A DNA stretch of 64,000 nt from an uncultured Tateyamaria sp. Lineage in GTDB: Bacteria; Pseudomonadota; Alphaproteobacteria; Rhodobacterales; Rhodobacteraceae. The stretch spans positions 186,001 to 250,000 of the forward strand of contig NZ_CANNES010000001.1 of the NCBI RefSeq assembly GCF_947503705.1, given 5' to 3'. Below the pieces are notes generated by a model, which searched no databases, was not told the origin of the DNA, and saw only the letters and a program-made list of their open reading frames with translations. Numbering within the stretch: the stretch's first letter is position 1; each line of letters opens with the position of its first letter. This document shows, one piece after another, positions 9,404 to 64,000 of this stretch. The translations under genes were made by a program, and so were the position numbers.

Positions 9404-10516
9404 CTATCTCAGGTAATCGCCCAGTTTCGCCAGACCCGTGCGCAGCACATCCGGGTCATTGGCAAACCCGATCCGCACATAGCCCTCCATCTCGAACGCA
9501 TCACCGGGTGTCAGCATCACGCCCGTCTTCTCCAGCAGGTCCACGCAAAACGCCCGCGCCGTCCCCTCCGTCTCGACCCTCAGCATCGCGGTTGTCCCCG
9601 CCTGCGGTTTGACCCAGGACAGACGCGGCTGACCTTCGATCCAGTCAGACAAATAGGCCAGGTTCCCCCGCGTGATCGCATGGCTTCGGGCCAGGATCTT
9701 GTCCCGGTTCTCCAACGCCAGCGCCGCAAAGTGATCGTTGATCATCCCCACTGAAATCGTGTCGTAATCGCGGTGGATCAACACCTGTTCTGTCACCTCC
9801 GCAGGCGCCACCATCCAGCCCACGCGCAAGCCAGCCAGTGAAAACGCCTTGGACGTGCTCGCCGTGCTGATCCCCTTCTCATAGACATCCACGATAGAGG
9901 CGGACATCCCGTCGCCCACCTGCCCTGTCCCGCGATAGACCTCGTCGCACAGCACGTAGGCCCCCGCATCCCGCGCAATCCCTGCAATCTCTTCCAGCAT
10001 CGCGCGGGGGATCAGGGCTCCGGTCGGATTGTTGGGGTTGGTCAGGGCAATCAACCGCGTGCCGGGTGTGACCATGGCCCGCAAAGCGTCCAGATCAGGC
10101 AAAAACCCATCATCAGCCCGCAACCGCAACTGCGCCACATCCGCCCCGATACTGGCGGGGATGGAATAGTGCTGCTGATAGGTCGGCACAATCGACACAA
10201 CCCGGTCGCCCGGCGACACCAGCGCCTTGTGGACCAGCATGTTGGCCGCGATGGTCCCATGGGTCACGGTCACATCTTCGACGGACTGATCGGCATACAT
10301 ATCGGCAATCGCCTGACGCAATCGCGTCGACCCTTCGATGGCACCATAGGTCATCTTCATCGGCAAAAGCTCTGACAGGTCCGCATGGTTCCGGCCCGCC
10401 AGGTGCAACAGCTCATCAATGGTGATGCTCGCCACACAGGTTTCCGCCAGATTATAGGCACAGCGGGTTTCCCACTCGTTCATCCAGATCTCGACTTTGA
10501 ACGGCTCAATCAGCAT
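9404..10516 (-). CDS. PLP-dependent aminotransferase, class I/II fold
   Basis: Fold-type I PLP enzyme of 370 residues. Seen are the 'NPNNPTGALIP' loop, the 'CDEVYRG' segment with the Asp that pairs with the pyridine nitrogen, and the Schiff-base lysine in 'STSKAFSLAGLRVGW'. 'GYVRIGFANDP' near the end carries the Arg that binds the substrate carboxylate. The N-terminal 'FKVEIWMNEWE' is unlike aspartate aminotransferases and reminds me of capreomycidine-synthase-like members, but the substrate cannot be named. The frame continues to 10546; ATG 10516 is preferred as it starts the conserved part. Monocistronic, convergent with trpS. Confidence 0.85.
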   Translation of the reverse strand: MLIEPFKVEIWMNEWETRCAYNLAETCVASITIDELLHLAGRNHADLSELLPMKMTYGAIEGSTRLRQAIADMYADQSVEDVTVTHGTIAANMLVHKALVSPGDRVVSIVPTYQQHYSIPASIGADVAQLRLRADDGFLPDLDALRAMVTPGTRLIALTNPNNPTGALIPRAMLEEIAGIARDAGAYVLCDEVYRGTGQVGDGMSASIVDVYEKGISTASTSKAFSLAGLRVGWMVAPAEVTEQVLIHRDYDTISVGMINDHFAALALENRDKILARSHAITRGNLAYLSDWIEGQPRLSWVKPQAGTTAMLRVETEGTARAFCVDLLEKTGVMLTPGDAFEMEGYVRIGFANDPDVLRTGLAKLGDYLR

Positions 10517-10670
10517 GGGCAGGAGTCCCCCGGGGAAAAAGGTCAATGCGCCTTTCTAGGGCCAAAACCGGCCCCTTCACCAGCCTCGGCGCGGTCATTG
10601 ACCCATATCAACGCGCCAAGCCAGCCAGGGCATTACCCTCGCAGCCACACCTAAAAGGGAGAGAAGCGAT

Positions 10671-11117
10671 ATGTTTGCGAAAATTGTTGTCGGCTATGAT
10701 GGGTCGGATACGGCGAAAAACGCGATGCGGCTGGCCTGTGATCTTGCTCAGAAATACGATTCAGAGCTGCATCTGGTGCACACACCGCAGCCGCATACGG
10801 TCGCTTTCGCCCTCGGCGCGGTTGCGGGCTATCACGCCGCCACGACCATGCCCCACGCCGACGAGGTGGAAAAAGCGGCCGCCGCCATCGTGACCTCGGC
10901 CCGCGATGTGGCCAAGGACTGCAACCAGACCATCACCGGCGTACACACAAACGCGGGCGAACCTGCGGACGAGATCATCGCCGTGGCCAAATCCGTGGGC
11001 GCCGACCTGATCGTGACGGGCCGCCGGGGGCTGGGCGGCGTAGGTGCGCTGGTGCTGGGCAGCACAACCCAACGGGTCAACCATCTGGCAGAATGCGCCT
11101 GCCTCTCCGTGACCTGA
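10671..11117 (+). CDS. Universal stress protein (UspA family)
   Basis: A 148-residue single-domain Usp protein. It opens with 'KIVVGYDGSDTAKNAMRLA' and ends with the ATP-binding signature 'GRRGLGGVGALVLGSTTQRV' (about 118-137), the G-x2-G-x9-GST pattern of ATP-binding Usps. Such proteins accumulate on starvation or stress and act in the cytosol; the exact role is not predictable. A GGGAGAG site precedes the ATG. Standing alone between two genes of unrelated function, it is probably transcribed on its own. Confidence 0.92.
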   Translation: MFAKIVVGYDGSDTAKNAMRLACDLAQKYDSELHLVHTPQPHTVAFALGAVAGYHAATTMPHADEVEKAAAAIVTSARDVAKDCNQTITGVHTNAGEPADEIIAVAKSVGADLIVTGRRGLGGVGALVLGSTTQRVNHLAECACLSVT

Positions 11118-11220
11118 GGCCATAGCCCCACCGGCGCGCACCAACACTGCGCGCCCGCGCGCATTGTCCGGGACGGCGGCAGGCCATAGCTTTTGTCAGA
11201 CCTCAAGACAGGAGCACATC

Positions 11221-11709
11221 ATGCCCGCCACCGTCCCCGCCGACACCCGCGTCGGCCACATCCACCTCAAGGTCACTGACCTCGACCGTGCCATCCACTT
11301 TTACAGCGACGTGTTGGGGTTCAGCGTCACGCAGCGCTATGGCGATCAGGCGGCCTTTCTCGCCGCGGGCGAATACCACCACCATATCGGGCTGAACACC
11401 TGGCATTCCAAAGGAGCCGGGGCCGCCCCCGTGCGGGCCGCCGGGCTCTATCACTCCGCTTTTGTCTTTCCCGACCGCGCCTCGCTCGGAGCTGCGCTCC
11501 AACGGGTGCTGGATCATGGCACACCGCTTGACGGGGCGGCGGATCATGGCGTGTCGCAGGCGGTCTATTTCCGCGACCCCGACGACAACGGGGTCGAGCT
11601 TTATGTGGATCGCGACCCGGTCGATTGGCCGCGCGGGCCGGACGGAACATTGGCCATGGTCAATGACCGACTGGACGTACCCGCGCTTCTGGCCGAAGCT
11701 GCGACATAA
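11221..11709 (+). CDS. VOC-family protein, catechol 2,3-dioxygenase-like
   Basis: A 162-residue vicinal-oxygen-chelate protein with two paired beta-alpha-beta-beta-beta modules. Metal ligands are visible: His in 'VGHIHLKV' (about 14), His in 'GLYHSAFVFP' (about 78) and Glu in 'DNGVELYVD' (about 125). 'FYSDVLGF' is the module signature. This set matches the small CatE/glyoxalase-like dioxygenase subgroup and suggests a metal-dependent enzyme, but the substrate is open. The ATG at 11221 follows ACAGGAGCACATC, with a good AGGAG. An upstream in-frame ATG at 11164 lacks a site. No obvious operon partners. Confidence 0.82.
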   Translation: MPATVPADTRVGHIHLKVTDLDRAIHFYSDVLGFSVTQRYGDQAAFLAAGEYHHHIGLNTWHSKGAGAAPVRAAGLYHSAFVFPDRASLGAALQRVLDHGTPLDGAADHGVSQAVYFRDPDDNGVELYVDRDPVDWPRGPDGTLAMVNDRLDVPALLAEAAT

Positions 11710-11756
11710 TCGCCTGCATTAACCCTTTTTCCGGGCTGTTTGGACGGCCTGACGGG

Positions 11757-11794
11757 AAAACGTACAGACCCGGTGGCAAACTGCTCATTTTCTG
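11757..11794. repeat. Imperfect direct repeat, copy 1
   Basis: First of two about 38-base copies that begin AAAACGTACAGA and end with CTGCTCATTTTCTG. The second copy starts 74 bases downstream. Both lie between the VOC gene and the deacetylase gene, outside coding sequence. Confidence 0.7.
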
Positions 11795-11830
11795 AAATGC
11801 GGGGGCAAACCGGGCCGAATCCGGGTGCTC

Positions 11831-57097: not shown

Positions 57098-58201
57098 TCA
57101 AGAGGCGCGCGGCAGGCGGATACGTTCCAACGCCGCGCGCTTGTTCTTGATCATGCGGGCTACAAGTTTCGATTGCGCATGACCTTTGGGGGTCATCCTG
57201 ACGAGCCTGTGCGCGTGTGTTTGCAATTGGGGAAAAAGCGCCGCGACCTCTGACCAGGCCGCATCCGACATCGCGACCTTGGTCATCGTACCCAGGTACA
57301 AGGTTTCAACGGGCGCACCATTGGCAAAGATGACCTCGTGCCGGTCGCACAAGATGTGCCAATAGGTCACGAAACCCGCTTCAACCGCCAATTCAACGCC
57401 CGGCAATCCGACCAGTTTGTGAGCTGCAACGAGAACTTCGTCTTCGCCAAACATGCGTTTGGCGATGGGCGAGGCCACCATCATGCGATGCTGTTTTGAC
57501 ACCAGCAGCGTGCGGTTCGGCAGGCCAAGACCCAAGGTATTGGCCCGAATCCGAACCGGGATCAGGCTGCCATAGCAGCGCACCGTACGTCCGCCGATCC
57601 ATCGGATCGGTTTGGGCTGTCCATCCTGCGTGATGACTTCAGTACCGACGGATAAGGCTTCAATTGGCAGGTCGCCATCGACAGTTGCAATTAACGTTCC
57701 AGAGACAAAACAGGTGACAAAATCGCTGTCCTCACGGCTGGCTGTCATACCCGAGTACCGATTGCCCGCGAGGCTATCCAAAGACATGGATTGAATGGGC
57801 TTTGCCTCAAGCGCAGCTTGATCAGCGTTCTGGGAAAACTCCGGCGCGAGGTAGGTCTTGCCGTCGGTGTCCTGAAAGACCACAGCGGTGAAATTGGCCG
57901 TTGTCCCGTCAGTATAGGTCAAGGTTGCGTTAAACACCGCAGTTGCGTCAAAAGTCTGTGCCGATCCGCCATCAATACTGAATTTATCGTCACTGCGGTT
58001 GTTGTTCATGTCATAGGCATTGCGGTTCCCGCCGCTGGCACTGACCTCGGACAGCGTTTGAACATCGTTGAATAAAGGATCACCCGCCTCGCCAAAAGAC
58101 ATGCCCACCAGATCGGCGGCATTTTCGGCGGTATAATTGCCCTCGGTCGTGTCCATTTTCGACTGCTGGCCCAGCGAAATGACCTTGAATGTGCTTGGCA
58201 T
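57098..58201 (-). CDS. Hint-domain protein
   Basis: A 367-residue protein whose C-terminal half carries a bacterial Hint (Hedgehog/intein) domain of the kind common in roseobacters. The domain begins 'VTCFVSGTLIATVDGDLPIE' with the likely nucleophile Cys164, then 'ALSVGTEVITQDGQPKPIRW', and continues with 'SKQHRMMV' and 'HILCDRHEVIFANG' (conserved His). The N-terminal 160 residues are acidic, rich in Asn, Asp and Ser, and show no signal peptide. Such proteins may self-cleave; whether this one does is unknown. Function unknown. Confidence 0.85.
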   Translation of the reverse strand: MPSTFKVISLGQQSKMDTTEGNYTAENAADLVGMSFGEAGDPLFNDVQTLSEVSASGGNRNAYDMNNNRSDDKFSIDGGSAQTFDATAVFNATLTYTDGTTANFTAVVFQDTDGKTYLAPEFSQNADQAALEAKPIQSMSLDSLAGNRYSGMTASREDSDFVTCFVSGTLIATVDGDLPIEALSVGTEVITQDGQPKPIRWIGGRTVRCYGSLIPVRIRANTLGLGLPNRTLLVSKQHRMMVASPIAKRMFGEDEVLVAAHKLVGLPGVELAVEAGFVTYWHILCDRHEVIFANGAPVETLYLGTMTKVAMSDAAWSEVAALFPQLQTHAHRLVRMTPKGHAQSKLVARMIKNKRAALERIRLPRAS

Positions 58202-58400: not shown

Positions 58401-58688
58401 TCAGGACGAGTCTTTGATCTCGCCCACGTAGTCCTCAAGCAGCTTTTCGTTCCGCGCCTCTTCGATCCGGTTGATGCGGTCGATGCGCTGCTGATTGTCG
58501 AAGCGGTATTTGACAAAATTCACGAGGCTCAGCGTGAGCATCAGAATACCGATGCCCCAAAATCCTTTGGTCGACAGGGGCACGTCAGTGGACAGGTACA
58601 GCGACAGACCCAGCAAGGCATAGGCGATCGCAACGCCTGCGCCATTGAACATCATGATCAGGGAGTTATCGGGTTTTTCATTCAACAT
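58401..58688 (-). CDS. YiaAB-like small inner-membrane protein
   Basis: A 95-residue protein with two membrane segments ('MFNGAGVAIAYALLGLSLYL', about 13-32, and 'FWGIGILMLTLSLVNFVKYR', about 43-62) and a charged, helical C-terminal tail ('QQRIDRINRIEEARNEKLLE'). The two-helix layout resembles the YiaA/YiaB family. It follows pspA by 36 bases on the same strand, and such small membrane proteins often accompany PspA, where they may recruit it to the membrane. The family call is moderate. Confidence 0.7.
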   Translation of the reverse strand: MLNEKPDNSLIMMFNGAGVAIAYALLGLSLYLSTDVPLSTKGFWGIGILMLTLSLVNFVKYRFDNQQRIDRINRIEEARNEKLLEDYVGEIKDSS

Positions 58689-58724
58689 TGGTTCTATCCT
58701 TACGTTTTATAGGTGGGATGAAGG

Positions 58725-59396
58725 TTATTTGGAGAGACGATCCAGCACGTCGCGCGCGGTGACACGGGTCGCGGCGCCGAAACCGGCGTCGGCCATGCGG
58801 TCCTCAAGACCGCTGTGATCGAGGCCCGCGTTGATGTCGGCCAAAATCTGGGCCTGCTCCAACGGGTCGTCTTTGCCGACAACGCGGTCAATCAGGTCCT
58901 GGGCTTCGTCAGCGGCAGACGGTCCGTGCGCGGTTGTATGAAGCTTGGCCTGCATTGTTTGTTCGCGGCGGATCGCCTTGGCCTGAAGCGCGCCTTGCTT
59001 GAGGTCGATCACCTTGCGATGACCCCTCTCGACTGACCCACGCAGACGGGTTGCCTGCATCTCAAGGCGGTCGAGGGTCGCAACGCGGACGGCGCTTTCA
59101 TTCTCCATCTCGGCGATTGCGTTGGCGGCCTCCACGGCCAGTTCTTCACGGCCCGCGCTGATCGCTTCGCGCGCCCGCTCGGTCAGGGATTGGATACGGG
59201 TGCGCAGCATATCGAGCAATTTTTGCTCGGACCTGCGGCGCTGGATCAGACTGGCCAAGGTGGACTTGGCCGCATGAACCTGCACTTCGGTCTCGCGGAT
59301 TTTCTGGTCGATCAACTCGATGGCGTAAACATCGCGCACATGTTCTTCGGCACGGGCATTGGCACCGGCAAAGAGCGTTTTGAAGGTGGCGAGCAT
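58725..59396 (-). CDS. PspA/IM30-family membrane-stress protein
   Basis: A 223-residue, almost wholly alpha-helical protein of the PspA/Vipp1 family, which polymerises on membranes and is structurally related to ESCRT-III. Long coiled-coil stretches run from about 15 to 165: 'LIDQKIRETEVQVHAAKSTL', 'RRRSEQKLLDMLRTRIQSL', 'RGSVERGHRKVIDLKQGALQ'. The C-terminal third is diverged, as in many family members. AAGGGAGAAC precedes the ATG. Its promoter region holds three copies of a TTGAAC-N3-GTTCAA dyad, likely bound by the neighbouring TetR regulator. Co-transcribed with the YiaAB-like gene. Confidence 0.85.
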   Translation of the reverse strand: MLATFKTLFAGANARAEEHVRDVYAIELIDQKIRETEVQVHAAKSTLASLIQRRRSEQKLLDMLRTRIQSLTERAREAISAGREELAVEAANAIAEMENESAVRVATLDRLEMQATRLRGSVERGHRKVIDLKQGALQAKAIRREQTMQAKLHTTAHGPSAADEAQDLIDRVVGKDDPLEQAQILADINAGLDHSGLEDRMADAGFGAATRVTARDVLDRLSK

Positions 59397-59411
59397 GTGT
59401 TCTCCCTTTTC

Positions 59412-59426
59412 TTGAACATCGTTCAC
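59412..59426. promoter_or_regulatory. TetR operator candidate 1 (pspA proximal)
   Basis: TTGAAC-ATC-GTTCAC, one mismatch from a perfect dyad, 16 bases upstream of the pspA start. Confidence 0.7.
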
Positions 59427-59445
59427 GAAGGGAGATAGGATAGCC

Positions 59446-59460
59446 GTGAACCCCGTTCAA
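59446..59460. promoter_or_regulatory. TetR operator candidate 2
   Basis: GTGAAC-CCC-GTTCAA, one mismatch, 34 bases from the first site start to start, between pspA and tetR. Confidence 0.7.
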
Positions 59461-59468
59461 GACTGAAA

Positions 59469-59483
59469 TTGAACATTGTTCAA
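59469..59483. promoter_or_regulatory. TetR operator candidate 3
   Basis: TTGAAC-ATT-GTTCAA, a perfect dyad that overlaps the stop codon of the tetR gene. It is 23 bases from site 2, start to start. Confidence 0.75.
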
Positions 59484-60088
59484 GTTTTTTTGTTTTCCGT
59501 TGCAGAACGCAAAACCATCGCAATCATCCGCCGGACCTGTTCGCGCGGCACGCCGGAAATGCGGTTCTCCAAGCCCAAGAGCACAATCCCATGCACAGAT
59601 GAAAACAGTGCGCGGGTCATGAGGCTCACGTCCTCGGCTTCAAGGTCGGGAAAACACTCGCGGACAGGCCCGTCGATATAGCTGAACAAATGCGCCAACT
59701 CGGCCAGATACCAGGGCGGCACATCCATATCGGTTGACATGCGCAGGTCAAACAGGGCCCGCCAGAGCCGTGGATGTTCTCCCGCGTATTCAAGATAGGC
59801 ATAAGACATCGCGATAAGCCGTTCTGTGGGGGGCAACGCCTCTTTCCCTTCAAGCGCGGCTGCCACATGCCGTCCCAGCTTGGCGAATGTGCGGCCGTTC
59901 ACGGCCATCACGATATCCTGCAAGTCGCCAAACGCGTTATAGATCGCCCCGACCGAGCACCCCGCCGCCTGCGCCAGGGGCCGCGCCTGAATCGCCTTGG
60001 CTCCGTTTTCTTCGATCTGCGCCTCAGCGATCTCGATCAGTTTCTCGCGCAGCGAATTGCGCCGCTCTTGGGCCTTGGTTGCCATCAT
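59480..60088 (-). CDS. TetR-family repressor of the pspA region
   Basis: A 202-residue TetR/AcrR regulator. The N-terminal helix-turn-helix covers '[20 protein letters not shown]' (about 35-54) followed by the typical 'DLQDIVMAV'. The C-terminal part is a TetR ligand/dimer domain ('[20 protein letters not shown]'). Two ATG codons open the frame (60088 and 60085); a GAGGA site suits the second better. Dyads of the form TTGAAC-N3-GTTCAA lie upstream of its own start and three times upstream of pspA, so it probably represses both itself and pspA. Ligand unknown. Confidence 0.88.
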
Positions 60089-60096
60089 GTCCTCGC

Positions 60097-60111
60097 TTGA
60101 ACGTGGTTCAG
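60097..60111. promoter_or_regulatory. TetR operator candidate 4 (autoregulation)
   Basis: TTGAAC-GTG-GTTCAG, one mismatch, nine bases upstream of the tetR start. It could also affect the divergent coiled-coil operon whose first ATG is about 160 bases away. Confidence 0.7.
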
Positions 60112-60268
60112 GCAGTAGCGCAACAGGACAAAGACGAAAAGGGGCGCGACCGACTTCCTTTCACGCACAGGTTTTGCAACACTCAGGCCAAATAAGTGCC
60201 CCGGCAGATGTAAATGGGCGTAACATTGCCTATATGTAATGCAACACATTGATCGATAGGAGAATTTG

Positions 60269-61345
60269 ATGGCCGATTTCGCAAGTCAGGTGGAAGAATC
60301 CCAAGCGCAGGTGGCGCAGGCGCAGTCAAAGATTGCGGAACTCACCAGTCGCATTGAAACCGCACGAGCCAAGATGAAATCAGGCGATGACATTTCGATG
60401 GACATTGAAAATGCCTCTTTAGAGGACGTGCATGCGCATACGGATGTCATGAATGCCAACATCGCCGAGCTTATCATGGGACTGGACGATGTGACATCCG
60501 CCTTCTCCAAGGATTTCGACGAGATGCGGACCAAGACGGGATGGGAAAGCGTCGTTGGCATCTTTGCCAAGGCCAAGTCGGAATCGATGCGACAGGAACG
60601 TATTCGCACCGCCTCCATCGATGACAAGTTGCAGGATCTGATCTCAAAATCTGATGTGATCGTGCAACTGCTGCAAGGCCAATTGACCATGCTCGAAGAG
60701 CAGAAGGTCAAAGTCGAGGGCAACCTGACCGAAACGCTGGATGAACGCGAGTTTACCGTTCAGGAATTGTCCGCCTTGCAAGCCGATATTCAGGGGATGG
60801 ACCCCAAGATCATCACGCTGGAAAACCAGATCGCGTCCGAGACCGATGCCGCCAAACGCACGGCTTTGGAAACGGAATTGGCCGAGTTGAACAGCCAGTA
60901 CAACCAGATGGTTCAGGACGAACAGGTCAAGCTGGCCAAGTCCCAAACCCTTGAACGCTATATCGAAAAAGGTAAAACCTGGATCGACTCCCTGCAAAAC
61001 CAGGCAGCGACGCAAATGGTGCTGATCAACAAATTGCAGACGGATACCAAGCAGCGTGTGGTGTTGTATGACGCGCTGACCAAATCGCTCAAAACAGCCC
61101 AGCAACAGGACGTCGCCCACCGCATCAACGAGATCGGCGTGCAGACGGACCAAGAGGCGCAAACCGCCATGGCAGGCATCGGTGCGGCCACCAACAAACG
61201 GATGGCCGACATGCTAGAGGCGCACGAGGACCACATGGTCTTTGCCCGCGACGTGCTGGAGCAGAAAGCCAAGGCCGACGAACGATTTGCCCGCCGGTTT
61301 GCCCAGATCGTCGAAGAACACGACAGCAACGCGTATGGGGGCTAA
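60269..61345 (+). CDS. Long coiled-coil protein, distantly TelA-like
   Basis: A 358-residue helical protein without membrane segments or signal. Heptad-like stretches cover most of it: 'EESQAQVAQAQSKIAELTSR' near the start, 'MLEEQKVKVEGNLTETLDER' near the middle. The part 'NQAATQMVLINKLQTDTKQR' with 'VVLYDALTKSLKTAQQQDVA' recalls the core of TelA (toxic-anion/tellurite resistance) proteins, but the match is from memory and weak. ATG 60269 lies behind TAGGAGA; the preceding TTG is not needed. First gene of the forward operon that ends in the AAA ATPase. Confidence 0.7.
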   Translation: MADFASQVEESQAQVAQAQSKIAELTSRIETARAKMKSGDDISMDIENASLEDVHAHTDVMNANIAELIMGLDDVTSAFSKDFDEMRTKTGWESVVGIFAKAKSESMRQERIRTASIDDKLQDLISKSDVIVQLLQGQLTMLEEQKVKVEGNLTETLDEREFTVQELSALQADIQGMDPKIITLENQIASETDAAKRTALETELAELNSQYNQMVQDEQVKLAKSQTLERYIEKGKTWIDSLQNQAATQMVLINKLQTDTKQRVVLYDALTKSLKTAQQQDVAHRINEIGVQTDQEAQTAMAGIGAATNKRMADMLEAHEDHMVFARDVLEQKAKADERFARRFAQIVEEHDSNAYGG

Positions 61346-61348
61346 GCC

Positions 61349-61498
61349 ATGAAGCTCGGTATCGCCGCCATCGCGGTTTCCATCCTCAGCCTCATCGCCT
61401 CTATCGGGTTCGGCGCACCGCCCTGGGTGAACGGAGTAGGATTTTTTTGTGGCATCGCCGGGCTGTATCTGCTGAGCCGGGCGCGCAAGGGCGGTTAA
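61349..61498 (+). CDS. Very small membrane protein (49 residues)
   Basis: A short frame beginning three bases after the coiled-coil gene: 'MKLGIAAIAVSILSLIASIG' forms one hydrophobic segment and 'GVGFFCGIAGLYLLSRARKG' a second, ending in a positive tail. Two membrane helices joined by 'FGAPPWVN' are predicted. The tight spacing, codon use like its neighbours and membrane pattern support it as a real gene. No family known to me. It could be a membrane receptor for the coiled-coil or ATPase proteins. Confidence 0.7.
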   Translation: MKLGIAAIAVSILSLIASIGFGAPPWVNGVGFFCGIAGLYLLSRARKGG

Positions 61499-61542
61499 GT
61501 TACGCCAAATCGTCAACCTCAGCCTTGCGGGGAAAGACAGAC

Positions 61543-61731
61543 ATGAAAAAGAAATTCGCCCTTGTCGTTTTCGGAGTTTCCCTGATCGGCGGCGCTATTC
61601 TCTTGGGGCTACCGTGGTGGGCATATGGTTTTGGCATTGTACCCGCACTCATCGGCCTTGCATGGCTTGGCGTTTATAACGCCGAAGCGGATGCGTCGGG
61701 TGGCAGGGGCGAAATGGGACAAGGTAGTTGA
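61543..61731 (+). CDS. Small membrane protein (62 residues)
   Basis: A 62-residue protein with two hydrophobic stretches in 'FALVVFGVSLIGGAILLGLP' and 'WWAYGFGIVPALIGLAWLGV', then a polar Gly-rich tail. ATG 61543 has a GGGGAAAG site. Its stop overlaps the TTG start of the next gene (TTGA). It shares the two-helix design of the 49-residue protein just upstream but not its sequence. Function unknown. Confidence 0.75.
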   Translation: MKKKFALVVFGVSLIGGAILLGLPWWAYGFGIVPALIGLAWLGVYNAEADASGGRGEMGQGS

Positions 61732-62849
61732 ATACACCCAAACTCGATATGACCGGCCTCACCGACCTTTTCGCTTCGCGCCGCTATTTCAAGAAGTTCG
61801 AAACGATCACCGCCCATTTGGGTCGTGTCGCGGGCGTGATGGAGGCCGAGGGCGATCTGAACCGGGATGAGGTCAAGATCCTCACCCGCTATCTGGCAGA
61901 ACTTACCTTTACCTTTCGTGCCTTGGGTCAGAAATACCTGCTGGTGGGCCGCGATACCGGGCGCTTTTTTGGTTCCCTCGCCATCGACGCTAACGAATCC
62001 GGTTTCCCTGCGGCGGAAGAGATCATCACCATGGCCAGCGACGCCCAACAGGCAGACCGGCATCTGGAAGGTATGGCTTCGGCCGATGAGTTGAAAAAAC
62101 AGATGGTCGAGGTGATTGTTGGCGACCGCACAGTACCGACCAAGTTGCAATTCGCGCTGTCCCAGCGGCTTTATTACGAGGAGTTGCAGCGCGGGAACCT
62201 GTTTTGGCCCCGCAACGATCCGCAGATCGTTTGGACCGGCAACAAGGCTGACGACCGCCGTACATTCCGCATCCATTGGGCCGTCTATGACAGCCAGGTG
62301 AACCTGCCGGTGATTTATATGATGGAGGTCGAGGATACAGGCCGCACCGCCCTGCCCAAGGACCAACGCCGCTGGCCCGAGGCGCAAGCGCATCTGATGG
62401 CACAAGCCCTGGGCGGGCTGAAGCTGGTAACCATCGCCACCGGTTTTGACGAAGATTTTGCCGACTTGCACCCCAAGCGGTTACGCCGGTTCCACGTGGG
62501 GCCGATGTATTCCTCGGCCTTTACCAAACAGTCGGGACCCATTTCGCAAGTTCTCGAATCCGCCCGCGCGCCGGAAGGCCAGGATTGGGCGCTGGTGTGG
62601 ACCGAAGAAGACCTGCGGTCCGAACGCGTTATGACGGAGCGGTCGGGCTGGTTTTCCTCAGTGGAACGCGAAGTCTTTGCGCTCGATCCCTTTTCGGGCC
62701 GGGGGGCCGAAACAGGCACCACCCGGATGGAGCGGAGCATCGTTCTGCCCCAACGCCCCTTTCAAGCGCTTGAAGAAATGAACCCGCCGGGGTTTCGGTC
62801 GGTACGCAAATTTGTAGTCAGCCCGGCGGGGCGGGTGCTGAGATATTGA
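61728..62849 (+). CDS. Unrecognised 373-residue protein of the PspA/AAA module
   Basis: I do not recognise this family. The start is a TTG at 61728 overlapping the previous stop, or ATG 61749. The N-terminal half is helical ('FKKFETITAHLGRVAGVMEA', then 'DEVKILTRYLAELTFTFRAL'). The C-terminal half has mixed strands and a repeated Trp/Arg flavour ('NLFWPRNDPQIVWTGNKADD', 'FRIHWAVYDSQVNLPVIYMM'). No membrane segment or signal is seen. Its place between the membrane proteins and the ATPase suggests an adaptor or substrate-recognition part. Confidence 0.65.
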   Translation: MNTPKLDMTGLTDLFASRRYFKKFETITAHLGRVAGVMEAEGDLNRDEVKILTRYLAELTFTFRALGQKYLLVGRDTGRFFGSLAIDANESGFPAAEEIITMASDAQQADRHLEGMASADELKKQMVEVIVGDRTVPTKLQFALSQRLYYEELQRGNLFWPRNDPQIVWTGNKADDRRTFRIHWAVYDSQVNLPVIYMMEVEDTGRTALPKDQRRWPEAQAHLMAQALGGLKLVTIATGFDEDFADLHPKRLRRFHVGPMYSSAFTKQSGPISQVLESARAPEGQDWALVWTEEDLRSERVMTERSGWFSSVEREVFALDPFSGRGAETGTTRMERSIVLPQRPFQALEEMNPPGFRSVRKFVVSPAGRVLRY

Positions 62850-62926
62850 TGGAACGGGCGCAGGGTATTCGCGCGACTTAATGCCTCCGGCGGGAGTATT
62901 TGCCGGAACAATGAAGAGGACACGTC

Positions 62927-64000
62927 ATGAGCCAGGTTTCGGACCAAATGGAATTGCGAGAAGCGGAAATCGTGGCGCATTACCCCATGGCGCTGGCCTT
63001 GTTACAAGGTTTTGACCACGCGCCGCGCATTGGTAAAGGGGCAGCAGCCCCGGTTGCGGAGCGGTCCCCCGGTGTTGGCACGCGCCGCCGGTTTCGGTCG
63101 ACCACACCGGGGTTGGTGACCCGGCGCACGACACCGACGGGCGCCGTGCAGCTTATGGCGACCATCGAAGGTTCGGATGGCGATGATGCGTTGATGTCGC
63201 CAGTGCAGGCAACGGTGCTGAACGCGCTGCGCCGAGCGATCTCCATCGCCTTGGCCGTGGCCGAAAACTATGCCGGGGTATCAGGTCTGGGCGATTTGAA
63301 GCGGGCCAATCTGGAAGGGGCCATGCCCCCGGCCCGCAAGACCGAGTTTGCCGAGTTGTTGGCCGCCGAGGCGCTGATCACTCTCTATGTCTTTGGCAAT
63401 GCGACCGCCTATTTGCTGTCAGCACACCAGACTGAAGTGACCGTCGAAGTCGGCGAGGTCGAGGAGGTGCTCACCGACAATGGCCAAACGGCCCTGCATG
63501 GGGCGCTGTGGGAGCTGGATCAGGACATTGCGGCCCATGCCCCCGACGACACCCATCTGGTCGCGACAGTCACCGCCTATGCCGAAGCACTGATGGAAAA
63601 GATCGCCCTGCGCGCCCAGAATGCACCGCGCCTTGCCCCCTTTACAGCGGCCAGTTGGCGCGTTGAGGCAGACGATTTCACCGTCCAAGGATTCTCGCCG
63701 GCGCATAAGGCGAAATCCACCACCCTCACCATGACCTTCAAAAAGCCGCATGAGGTTGTGGGCAACCATATCGCCAAATATCAGGCCATGAAGCTGGCCA
63801 AGATGCTGATGGCATATGACTTTGACCGCCGCCTTAACCCTTTCGCCGAGTTGGGTGGGTTCATCTTTACCTTCATGGGGGATGGCAAGCCGGGTACGGG
63901 CAAGACCACCCTGATCCAGATGATGGCGGGTCTCTTGAACGACTACTGTCAGGTGGCGGGCTATCCCTTCCGTTATCAGAACCTGAGCACCGACAATATC
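62927..64000 (+). CDS. AAA-type ATPase (partial, 3' end outside window)
   Basis: The frame runs from ATG 62927 to the right edge without a stop (358 codons seen). The first 300 residues are a family-specific region ('MELREAEIVAHYPMALALLQ', 'LFTAASW'-like mixed segments) ending in 'NPFAELGGFIFTFMGDGKPG'. A Walker A motif follows, GKPGTGKTT (about 320-328, Lys326). Walker B, sensor and arginine-finger motifs lie beyond the edge. It closes the operon with the coiled-coil protein and may power remodelling of a PspA-like or coiled-coil assembly. A GAAGAGGA site precedes the start. Confidence 0.8.
   Translation, partial: MSQVSDQMELREAEIVAHYPMALALLQGFDHAPRIGKGAAAPVAERSPGVGTRRRFRSTTPGLVTRRTTPTGAVQLMATIEGSDGDDALMSPVQATVLNALRRAISIALAVAENYAGVSGLGDLKRANLEGAMPPARKTEFAELLAAEALITLYVFGNATAYLLSAHQTEVTVEVGEVEEVLTDNGQTALHGALWELDQDIAAHAPDDTHLVATVTAYAEALMEKIALRAQNAPRLAPFTAASWRVEADDFTVQGFSPAHKAKSTTLTMTFKKPHEVVGNHIAKYQAMKLAKMLMAYDFDRRLNPFAELGGFIFTFMGDGKPGTGKTTLIQMMAGLLNDYCQVAGYPFRYQNLSTDNI

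Follow-up and report, generated by a model that had tools for sequence, protein, structure and literature searches.

Gene content of the locus

The stretch of DNA studied here, referred to as the window, comprises 64,000 nucleotides of the genome of an uncultured Tateyamaria sp. of the Rhodobacteraceae (bases 186001-250000 of contig 1; genome of 4.43 Mb in 31 contigs). Its right-hand end holds the 5' half of an operon in which a conserved core is interrupted by slots of highly variable content. The core includes a coiled-coil protein (CC), a 373-residue protein (U373), an AAA ATPase (AAA) and a DUF6638 protein, and the forward genes of the window are CC, two tiny membrane proteins (TM1 and TM2), U373 and AAA (Table 1). 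An earlier note on the same DNA had joined these genes to an adjoining set encoding PspA, a TetR regulator and a YiaAB-like protein, and had proposed a single membrane-stress or membrane-remodelling module. All the genes that it listed were found, approximately where it had placed them, and its assignments of PspA, TetR and AAA agree with the Pfam matches.

As that note had suggested, the contig was followed rightwards past the window end (locus L002, in which position p corresponds to window position 58000+p). The operon was found to extend about 4.6 kb beyond the window through the rest of AAA, three cargo genes, DUF6638 and the membrane proteins M87 and M214. CC, TM1, TM2 and U373, the last of which had already been called unrecognised, all stayed below the Pfam and NCBIfam cut-offs, and no Pfam family was over cut-off for M297, the first cargo protein.

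Table 1. Genes of the operon, followed by those adjoining it
Feature	Position	Strand	Remarks
CC, soluble coiled-coil protein, 358 residues	60269-61345	+	first gene of the conserved operon
TM1, slot 1 gene, 49 residues	61349-61498	+	two predicted transmembrane (TM) helices; variable
TM2, slot 1 gene, 62 residues	61543-61731	+	ATG at 61543; predicted membrane protein; variable; 4-nt overlap with U373
U373, conserved soluble protein, 373 residues	61728-62849	+
AAA ATPase, 644 residues	62927-64861 (window frame; end = L002 6861)	+	first 358 residues inside the window; PF00004 1.3e-11
M297, first cargo gene after AAA, 297 residues	L002 6858-7751	+	GTG start; four-base overlap with the AAA stop
Two small membrane proteins, slot 3 cargo	L002 7748-8044, 8055-8351	+	start codons chosen by the authors
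DUF6638 protein	L002 8348-9682	+	PF20343 4e-231; full family member
M87, membrane protein	L002 9686-9949	+
M214, membrane protein	L002 9964-10608	+
DUF1203-like gene, then polA	downstream of M214 in L002		names read from the sequence
YiaAB-like membrane protein, 95 residues	58401-58688	-	weak YiaAB match, 0.0046, under cut-off; neighbouring cassette
PspA/IM30 protein	58725-59426	-	PF04012 1.3e-16, over cut-off; neighbouring TetR-PspA-YiaAB cassette, outside the conserved operon
TetR regulator	59480-60088	-	PF13305 1.8e-09; neighbouring cassette

Conservation of the core

Two samples were compared, namely 149 Rhodobacteraceae genomes (the family sample) and 81 loci consisting of L002 and 80 named Rhodobacteraceae loci. 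Some sampled genomes and named loci coincide, G099 being L050, and G906, G907, G908 and G910 being the Tateyamaria loci L035, L034, L037 and L036. The CC-AAA-DUF6638 core is all-or-none and is conserved well above chance: AAA was present in 63 of the 149 genomes, CC in 64 and DUF6638 in 69, and all 63 genomes with AAA hold both other genes, CC occurring in 1 and DUF6638 in 6 of the genomes that have no AAA. Open reading frames (ORFs) were called in the 81 loci for CC in 78, U373 in 80, DUF6638 in 75, M87 in 74 and M214 in 75, always in a single gene order; three loci (L041, L055 and L096) end at contig ends. M87 and M214 belong to the operon in Rhodobacteraceae. The part of the proposed module that consists of CC, U373 and AAA with membrane proteins is supported by these counts and by the shared order.

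In wider samples, a profile of U373 had matches in 113 of 196 genomes at the level of the order and in 24 of 349 at that of the phylum; of the 24, 12 belong to the window's family, 11 to other families in its class and 1 to another class. The eight neighbourhoods fetched for the 12 phylum matches outside the family contain CC-U373-AAA-DUF6638, as does G358, and this order was seen in G358, G671, G476 and six f160 genomes. The AAA gene also occurs in ten plasmid-collection records (Sinorhizobium, Shinella, Rhizobium and Vibrio). Four of these regions were fetched, with the same layout in Sinorhizobium and Vibrio, and CC, U373, AAA and DUF6638 were recognized by similarity, with annotation for three. 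Both rhizobial loci that were scanned have, after DUF6638, a DUF2333 protein at the usual place of M214. The Sinorhizobium record CP090106.1 (L169) is labelled pSymB yet measures 3.7 Mb, which we take to be the size of the Sinorhizobium chromosome, and is possibly mislabelled. Among the named Rhodobacteraceae loci, L084 showed an AAA ATPase gene with no CC, U373 or DUF6638 in the 22 kb covered.

Hypervariable slots

Slot 1 lies between CC and U373, slot 2 between U373 and AAA, and slot 3 between AAA and DUF6638. The surrounding genes are constant, and the CC/U373 gap varies from -4 to 780 bp and the AAA/DUF6638 gap from 34 to 2,382 bp, the latter without L047, whose apparent 637-residue cargo is its own AAA gene and which was excluded from the pair and stop-codon analyses. 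Slot 3 contained 95 ORFs of at least 80 residues in 40 families, of which 24 have a single member (the L047 artefact included), and slot 1 contained 71 ORFs of at least 45 residues in 48 families, a TM helix being predicted by a simple hydropathy rule in 60 of the 71. Among 146 locus pairs whose AAA genes are 85% or more identical in DNA, the contents of slot 3 showed less than 20% translated similarity in 123 and were mostly related in 7; slot 1 was unrelated in 130 of 144 pairs of close relatives. The two tiny membrane proteins of the window, suggested in the earlier note to be new parts, are not constant components and form the contents of a variable slot.

Slot-3 ORFs of at least 140 residues lie on average 10 GC points under the core, and 34 of 44 (one of the 44 being the L047 artefact) by more than 8 points, a difference reached by none of the 74 M214 genes. 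Judged by composition, the slot-3 cargo appears to be of foreign origin.

The slot measures 150 bp or more in 71 loci; 56 of them have a cargo ORF whose start lies between -8 and +45 relative to the AAA stop, and 15 have none in this interval. The start falls at exactly -3 in 38 of the 71, and in 22 the cargo also ends within -4 to +5 of DUF6638. The last bases of the AAA gene read GTGA or ATGA at 57 of these loci, so that the gene itself supplies the cargo start codon. A slot-3 ORF starting at -3 was also seen in 13 of 20 additional family loci, at least one of which duplicates a named locus. The longest cargo ORF is on the operon strand in 59 of 67 slots of at least 300 bp, and this bias, together with the start on the AAA stop codon, suggests selection for co-expression. 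A hypervariable slot within a translationally overlapping operon would be an unusual arrangement even if it were a mere hotspot.

Cargo proteins

A total of 69 slot-2 and slot-3 proteins were scanned, 3 of them duplicates, which left 66 distinct proteins in 34 BLAST families. Pfam matches were obtained for 12 of the 66, ten to nuclease, Abi or Fic families and two to DUF2971. Among the 42 slot-3 proteins of at least 140 residues, five matched at 1e-3, namely an Mrr restriction enzyme (L081), putAbiC (L073), AbiJ_NTD4 (L069) and DUF2971 (L088 and L102), and the two DUF2971 proteins also matched PDC-S31 of PADLOC; weaker matches were HEPN in L038 (0.0036) and HNH in L050 (0.0012). Seven of the 27 further slot-2 and slot-3 proteins matched, five to DUF559 nuclease, one to Fic and one to AbiJ_NTD4. 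The five DUF559 proteins form one BLAST group, and the five MTES_1575 matches were taken to be these proteins. Domains of the Abi, Mrr, HEPN and Fic types often serve as effectors. In a control of 43 size-matched flanking ORFs (including one protein that is the PspA of L033) 60 Pfam families were matched, with no restriction, Abi or Fic family among the 25 listed.

The interval between AAA and DUF6638 in L169 (Sinorhizobium) is occupied by a nuclease gene of DUF559 type together with an ISRm16 transposase (10079-11824), and in L168 (an f160 genome) a Fic-domain gene lies between U373 and AAA (9803-10633).

A membrane-anchor segment, GDTLAG...W[IL]{2}...Q..EL, is common to M297 and to the slot-3 proteins of L044, L049, L065, L073, L080 and L093. 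In the one pair compared, M297 and the protein of L073, which has putAbiC further on, a convincing alignment was confined to the anchor segment and the C-terminal parts were unrelated. The recurrence of this motif in seven cargo proteins with such unrelated C-terminal parts in that pair, and the many slot genes encoding small proteins with two or three TM helices, would suit an explanation in which the slot genes are adaptors or substrates that give the machine its specificity, for example membrane proteins that it would insert, extract or degrade, and not anti-phage effectors. Nuclease, Fic and Abi domains would be odd for adaptors, however, and this explanation is considered unlikely.

Properties of the core proteins

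In 17 sequences of AAA the motif GDGxPGTGKTT, which we take to be Walker A, is invariant, and GT[IV]DDID, presumably a Walker B-like motif (DD), is conserved; by these motifs the AAA domain is of the classical type and looks active. The Pfam listing of AAA to E 1, whose filters can drop very weak matches, gave only AAA, AAA_19 and ABC_tran and no MIT domain. The structure model of CC is all-helical and of low confidence (pLDDT 60). U373 gave an AF2 model with a pLDDT of 88.9, for which no confident fold relative was found by structure comparison.

As judged from profiles, CC bears no convincing similarity to PspA or TelA. With PspA, hhalign gave a probability of 16 and an E of 0.0016 over 87 columns. 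The description of CC as TelA-like did not hold up, as TelA (PF05816) was absent from the Pfam listing to E 1 and the hhalign probability against TelA of the same genus (3 near-identical rows) was 0.3. Loci of true TelA (L173, L176 and L180) lie apart from CC; the TelA gene is preceded there by a membrane gene of coiled-coil-like character and followed by a third conserved gene.

In PADLOC the best match of AAA was TRIP13 (9.8e-07) and that of CC was LmuB (4.8e-05), CC also matching REase_II and JetC weakly. U373, DUF6638, M87 and M214 matched nothing there, and the core fits no anti-phage system of that catalogue.

The PspA cassette

In the family sample PF04012 was over cut-off in 26 of the 149 genomes, 16 of which hold AAA, and 47 of the 63 operon-bearing genomes have no PspA over cut-off. 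Only in the window's genome, out of the 16 with both, does PspA adjoin the operon; in the other 15 the two lie on different contigs or are separated by more than 30 kb, some contigs being short. All 10 sampled genomes of the window's genus have AAA, 3 have PspA and 7 do not, and in the 3 with PspA it adjoins CC. Among the 80 named loci, some of them incomplete, PspA-TetR-YiaAB adjoins the operon in two (L033 and L071). The earlier note had tied its module to the coiled-coil, unknown and ATPase genes lying together and near pspA in related genomes. CC, U373 and AAA do lie together; with adjacency to pspA found in just 2 of 80 loci and 1 of 16 genomes, membership of PspA in the conserved operon is not supported.

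Of the remaining 25 PspA neighbourhoods in the family sample, 20 were fetched, 12 of these from operon-bearing genomes. All 20 hold TetR, 17 hold a YiaAB-like gene, and none holds an operon gene, the window's PspA itself being unmatched in 2; TetR-PspA-YiaAB is therefore a cassette of its own. The proposed YiaAB-like partner of PspA is a weak match in the window, and such a gene recurs in the neighbourhoods just mentioned. The PspA genes look like a stress cassette distinct from the operon, which they adjoin in part of one genus. In G671, of another family, YiaAB-PspA with a divergent TetR was observed on the M214 side of the operon, at its 3' end (L162 3099-5510), a second and apparently separate adjacency. 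Co-occurrence of PspA and AAA is slightly above expectation (Fisher p 0.048, kinship ignored). The two separate-looking adjacencies and this weak excess allow a loose link of PspA to the operon, not the role of a required partner.

The idea of a membrane-stress system centred on PspA, with the ATPase remodelling PspA as Vps4 does ESCRT-III, could draw on these adjacencies, on the excess in co-occurrence and on the E of the CC-PspA alignment, though the probability of that alignment was 16. Ravi et al. 2024 (PMC11237479) report associations of other kinds between PspA and AAA proteins in bacteria. With PspA lacking from most operon-bearing genomes and from 7 of 10 genomes of the genus, and no operon gene in the 20 other neighbourhoods, PspA remodelling as a general mechanism is largely refuted, and such a system is very improbable here.

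Proposed function of the operon

Co-occurrence of the core genes, gene order, exchange of the slot contents and overlap of the reading frames are established by sequence. The explanation that we favour, tentatively and at a little under an even chance, is that of a conserved ATPase and coiled-coil machine with plug-in effectors in its slots, PspA being separate. AAA proteins remodel their partners using ATP, and AAA would here remodel an assembly of CC, its best conserved partner, at the membrane; M87 and M214 would hold the assembly there and set the membrane site, and U373 and DUF6638 could act as adaptors. The slot genes would be effectors made in step with AAA, whose dose or activity the machine would set by control or licensing, and the overall role would most likely be anti-phage defence of the abortive-infection style. 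It is tempting to picture a modular defence machine, in which the operon of an AAA-coiled-coil membrane complex contains a socket formed by the overlapping AAA stop and start codon and receives unrelated toxic or anti-phage effector genes exchanged between strains; on the sequences at hand we regard this picture as possible but rather doubtful.

Several observations weigh against the explanation favoured. CC is strongly conserved (70-93% identical across 19 family rows) and each of the 10 genomes sampled from the genus has AAA, a conservation of the core which seems more like that of a housekeeping complex than that of a typical defence gene. L068 and L105 are without DUF6638-M87-M214, and L084 has AAA only. 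No slot-3 cargo ORF is present in Vibrio, G671, G476, L164, L172, L119, G358 or L112, so the core needs no cargo and must act by itself. No Pfam match was found for 54 of the 66 distinct slot proteins, and the 12 matches span only about six families. PADLOC matched 7 of 42 cargo proteins versus at most 8 of 43 size-matched flanking genes, which does not separate the two sets. The match of CC to LmuB may be coiled-coil background, and the rhizobial DUF559 may be just a mobile nuclease.

Another explanation, close in probability to the defence reading, gives the core a housekeeping-like function in the membrane or envelope, without a role in defence, and treats the AAA/DUF6638 junction as no more than a tolerated insertion hotspot, its passengers being rich in defence and toxin genes as in many hotspots. 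We regard it as a serious possibility, though short of probable. The stable and strongly conserved core, the cargo-free operons of several lineages and the equal PADLOC counts of cargo and control are in keeping with it, as are the DUF559-type genes in five rhizobial slots, accompanied in one Sinorhizobium record by an IS element, and the ordinary families of the flanking control genes listed. It is opposed by the use of the AAA stop codon by the cargo in 38 of 71 loci and by the strand bias in 59 of 67 slots, which suggest selection for co-expression, and by the small membrane proteins that recur in slot 1 (a TM helix predicted in 60 of 71 ORFs), a pattern not expected of a neutral hotspot.

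If the slots do carry effectors run by the machine, the operon would represent an uncatalogued defence platform present in 63 of the 149 sampled Rhodobacteraceae genomes, and the slots, with their large share of proteins without a Pfam match, would form a ready trap for new effectors.

Comparison with known systems

Neither a description of the operon nor the name DUF6638 was found in the literature searched, subscription papers and preprints being outside the search. Lamassu and CBASS are modular anti-phage systems with exchangeable effectors. The operon resembles them in its conserved core with varying nuclease, Abi or membrane cargo and in the weak likeness of AAA to TRIP13 and of CC to LmuB; it differs in that the other core genes are unmatched in PADLOC and its cargo is internal and optional. 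Like ESCRT-III/Vps4 (Cdv), the operon has a single classical AAA domain beside a helical protein, but its ATPase is without an MIT match and CC without a convincing ESCRT-III or PspA profile match. CC shares with the TelA operon the character of a long helical soluble protein; it has no profile match, however, and the true TelA gene of the window's genome is on another contig.

According to Ravi et al. 2024 (PMC11237479), the AAA protein that co-occurs with PspA in bacteria carries two AAA domains, of which the N-terminal is inactive. The window is similar to such phage-shock-type PSP systems with AAA+ partners in the closeness of PspA to an AAA protein and to small membrane proteins, and is dissimilar in that Pfam gives one AAA domain and the operon occurs mostly without PspA.

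On the far side of the PspA cassette, a Hint-domain-like protein, judged by eye, is encoded on the minus strand of the window at 57098-58201 (CFVSGTLIATVDGDLPIEAL).

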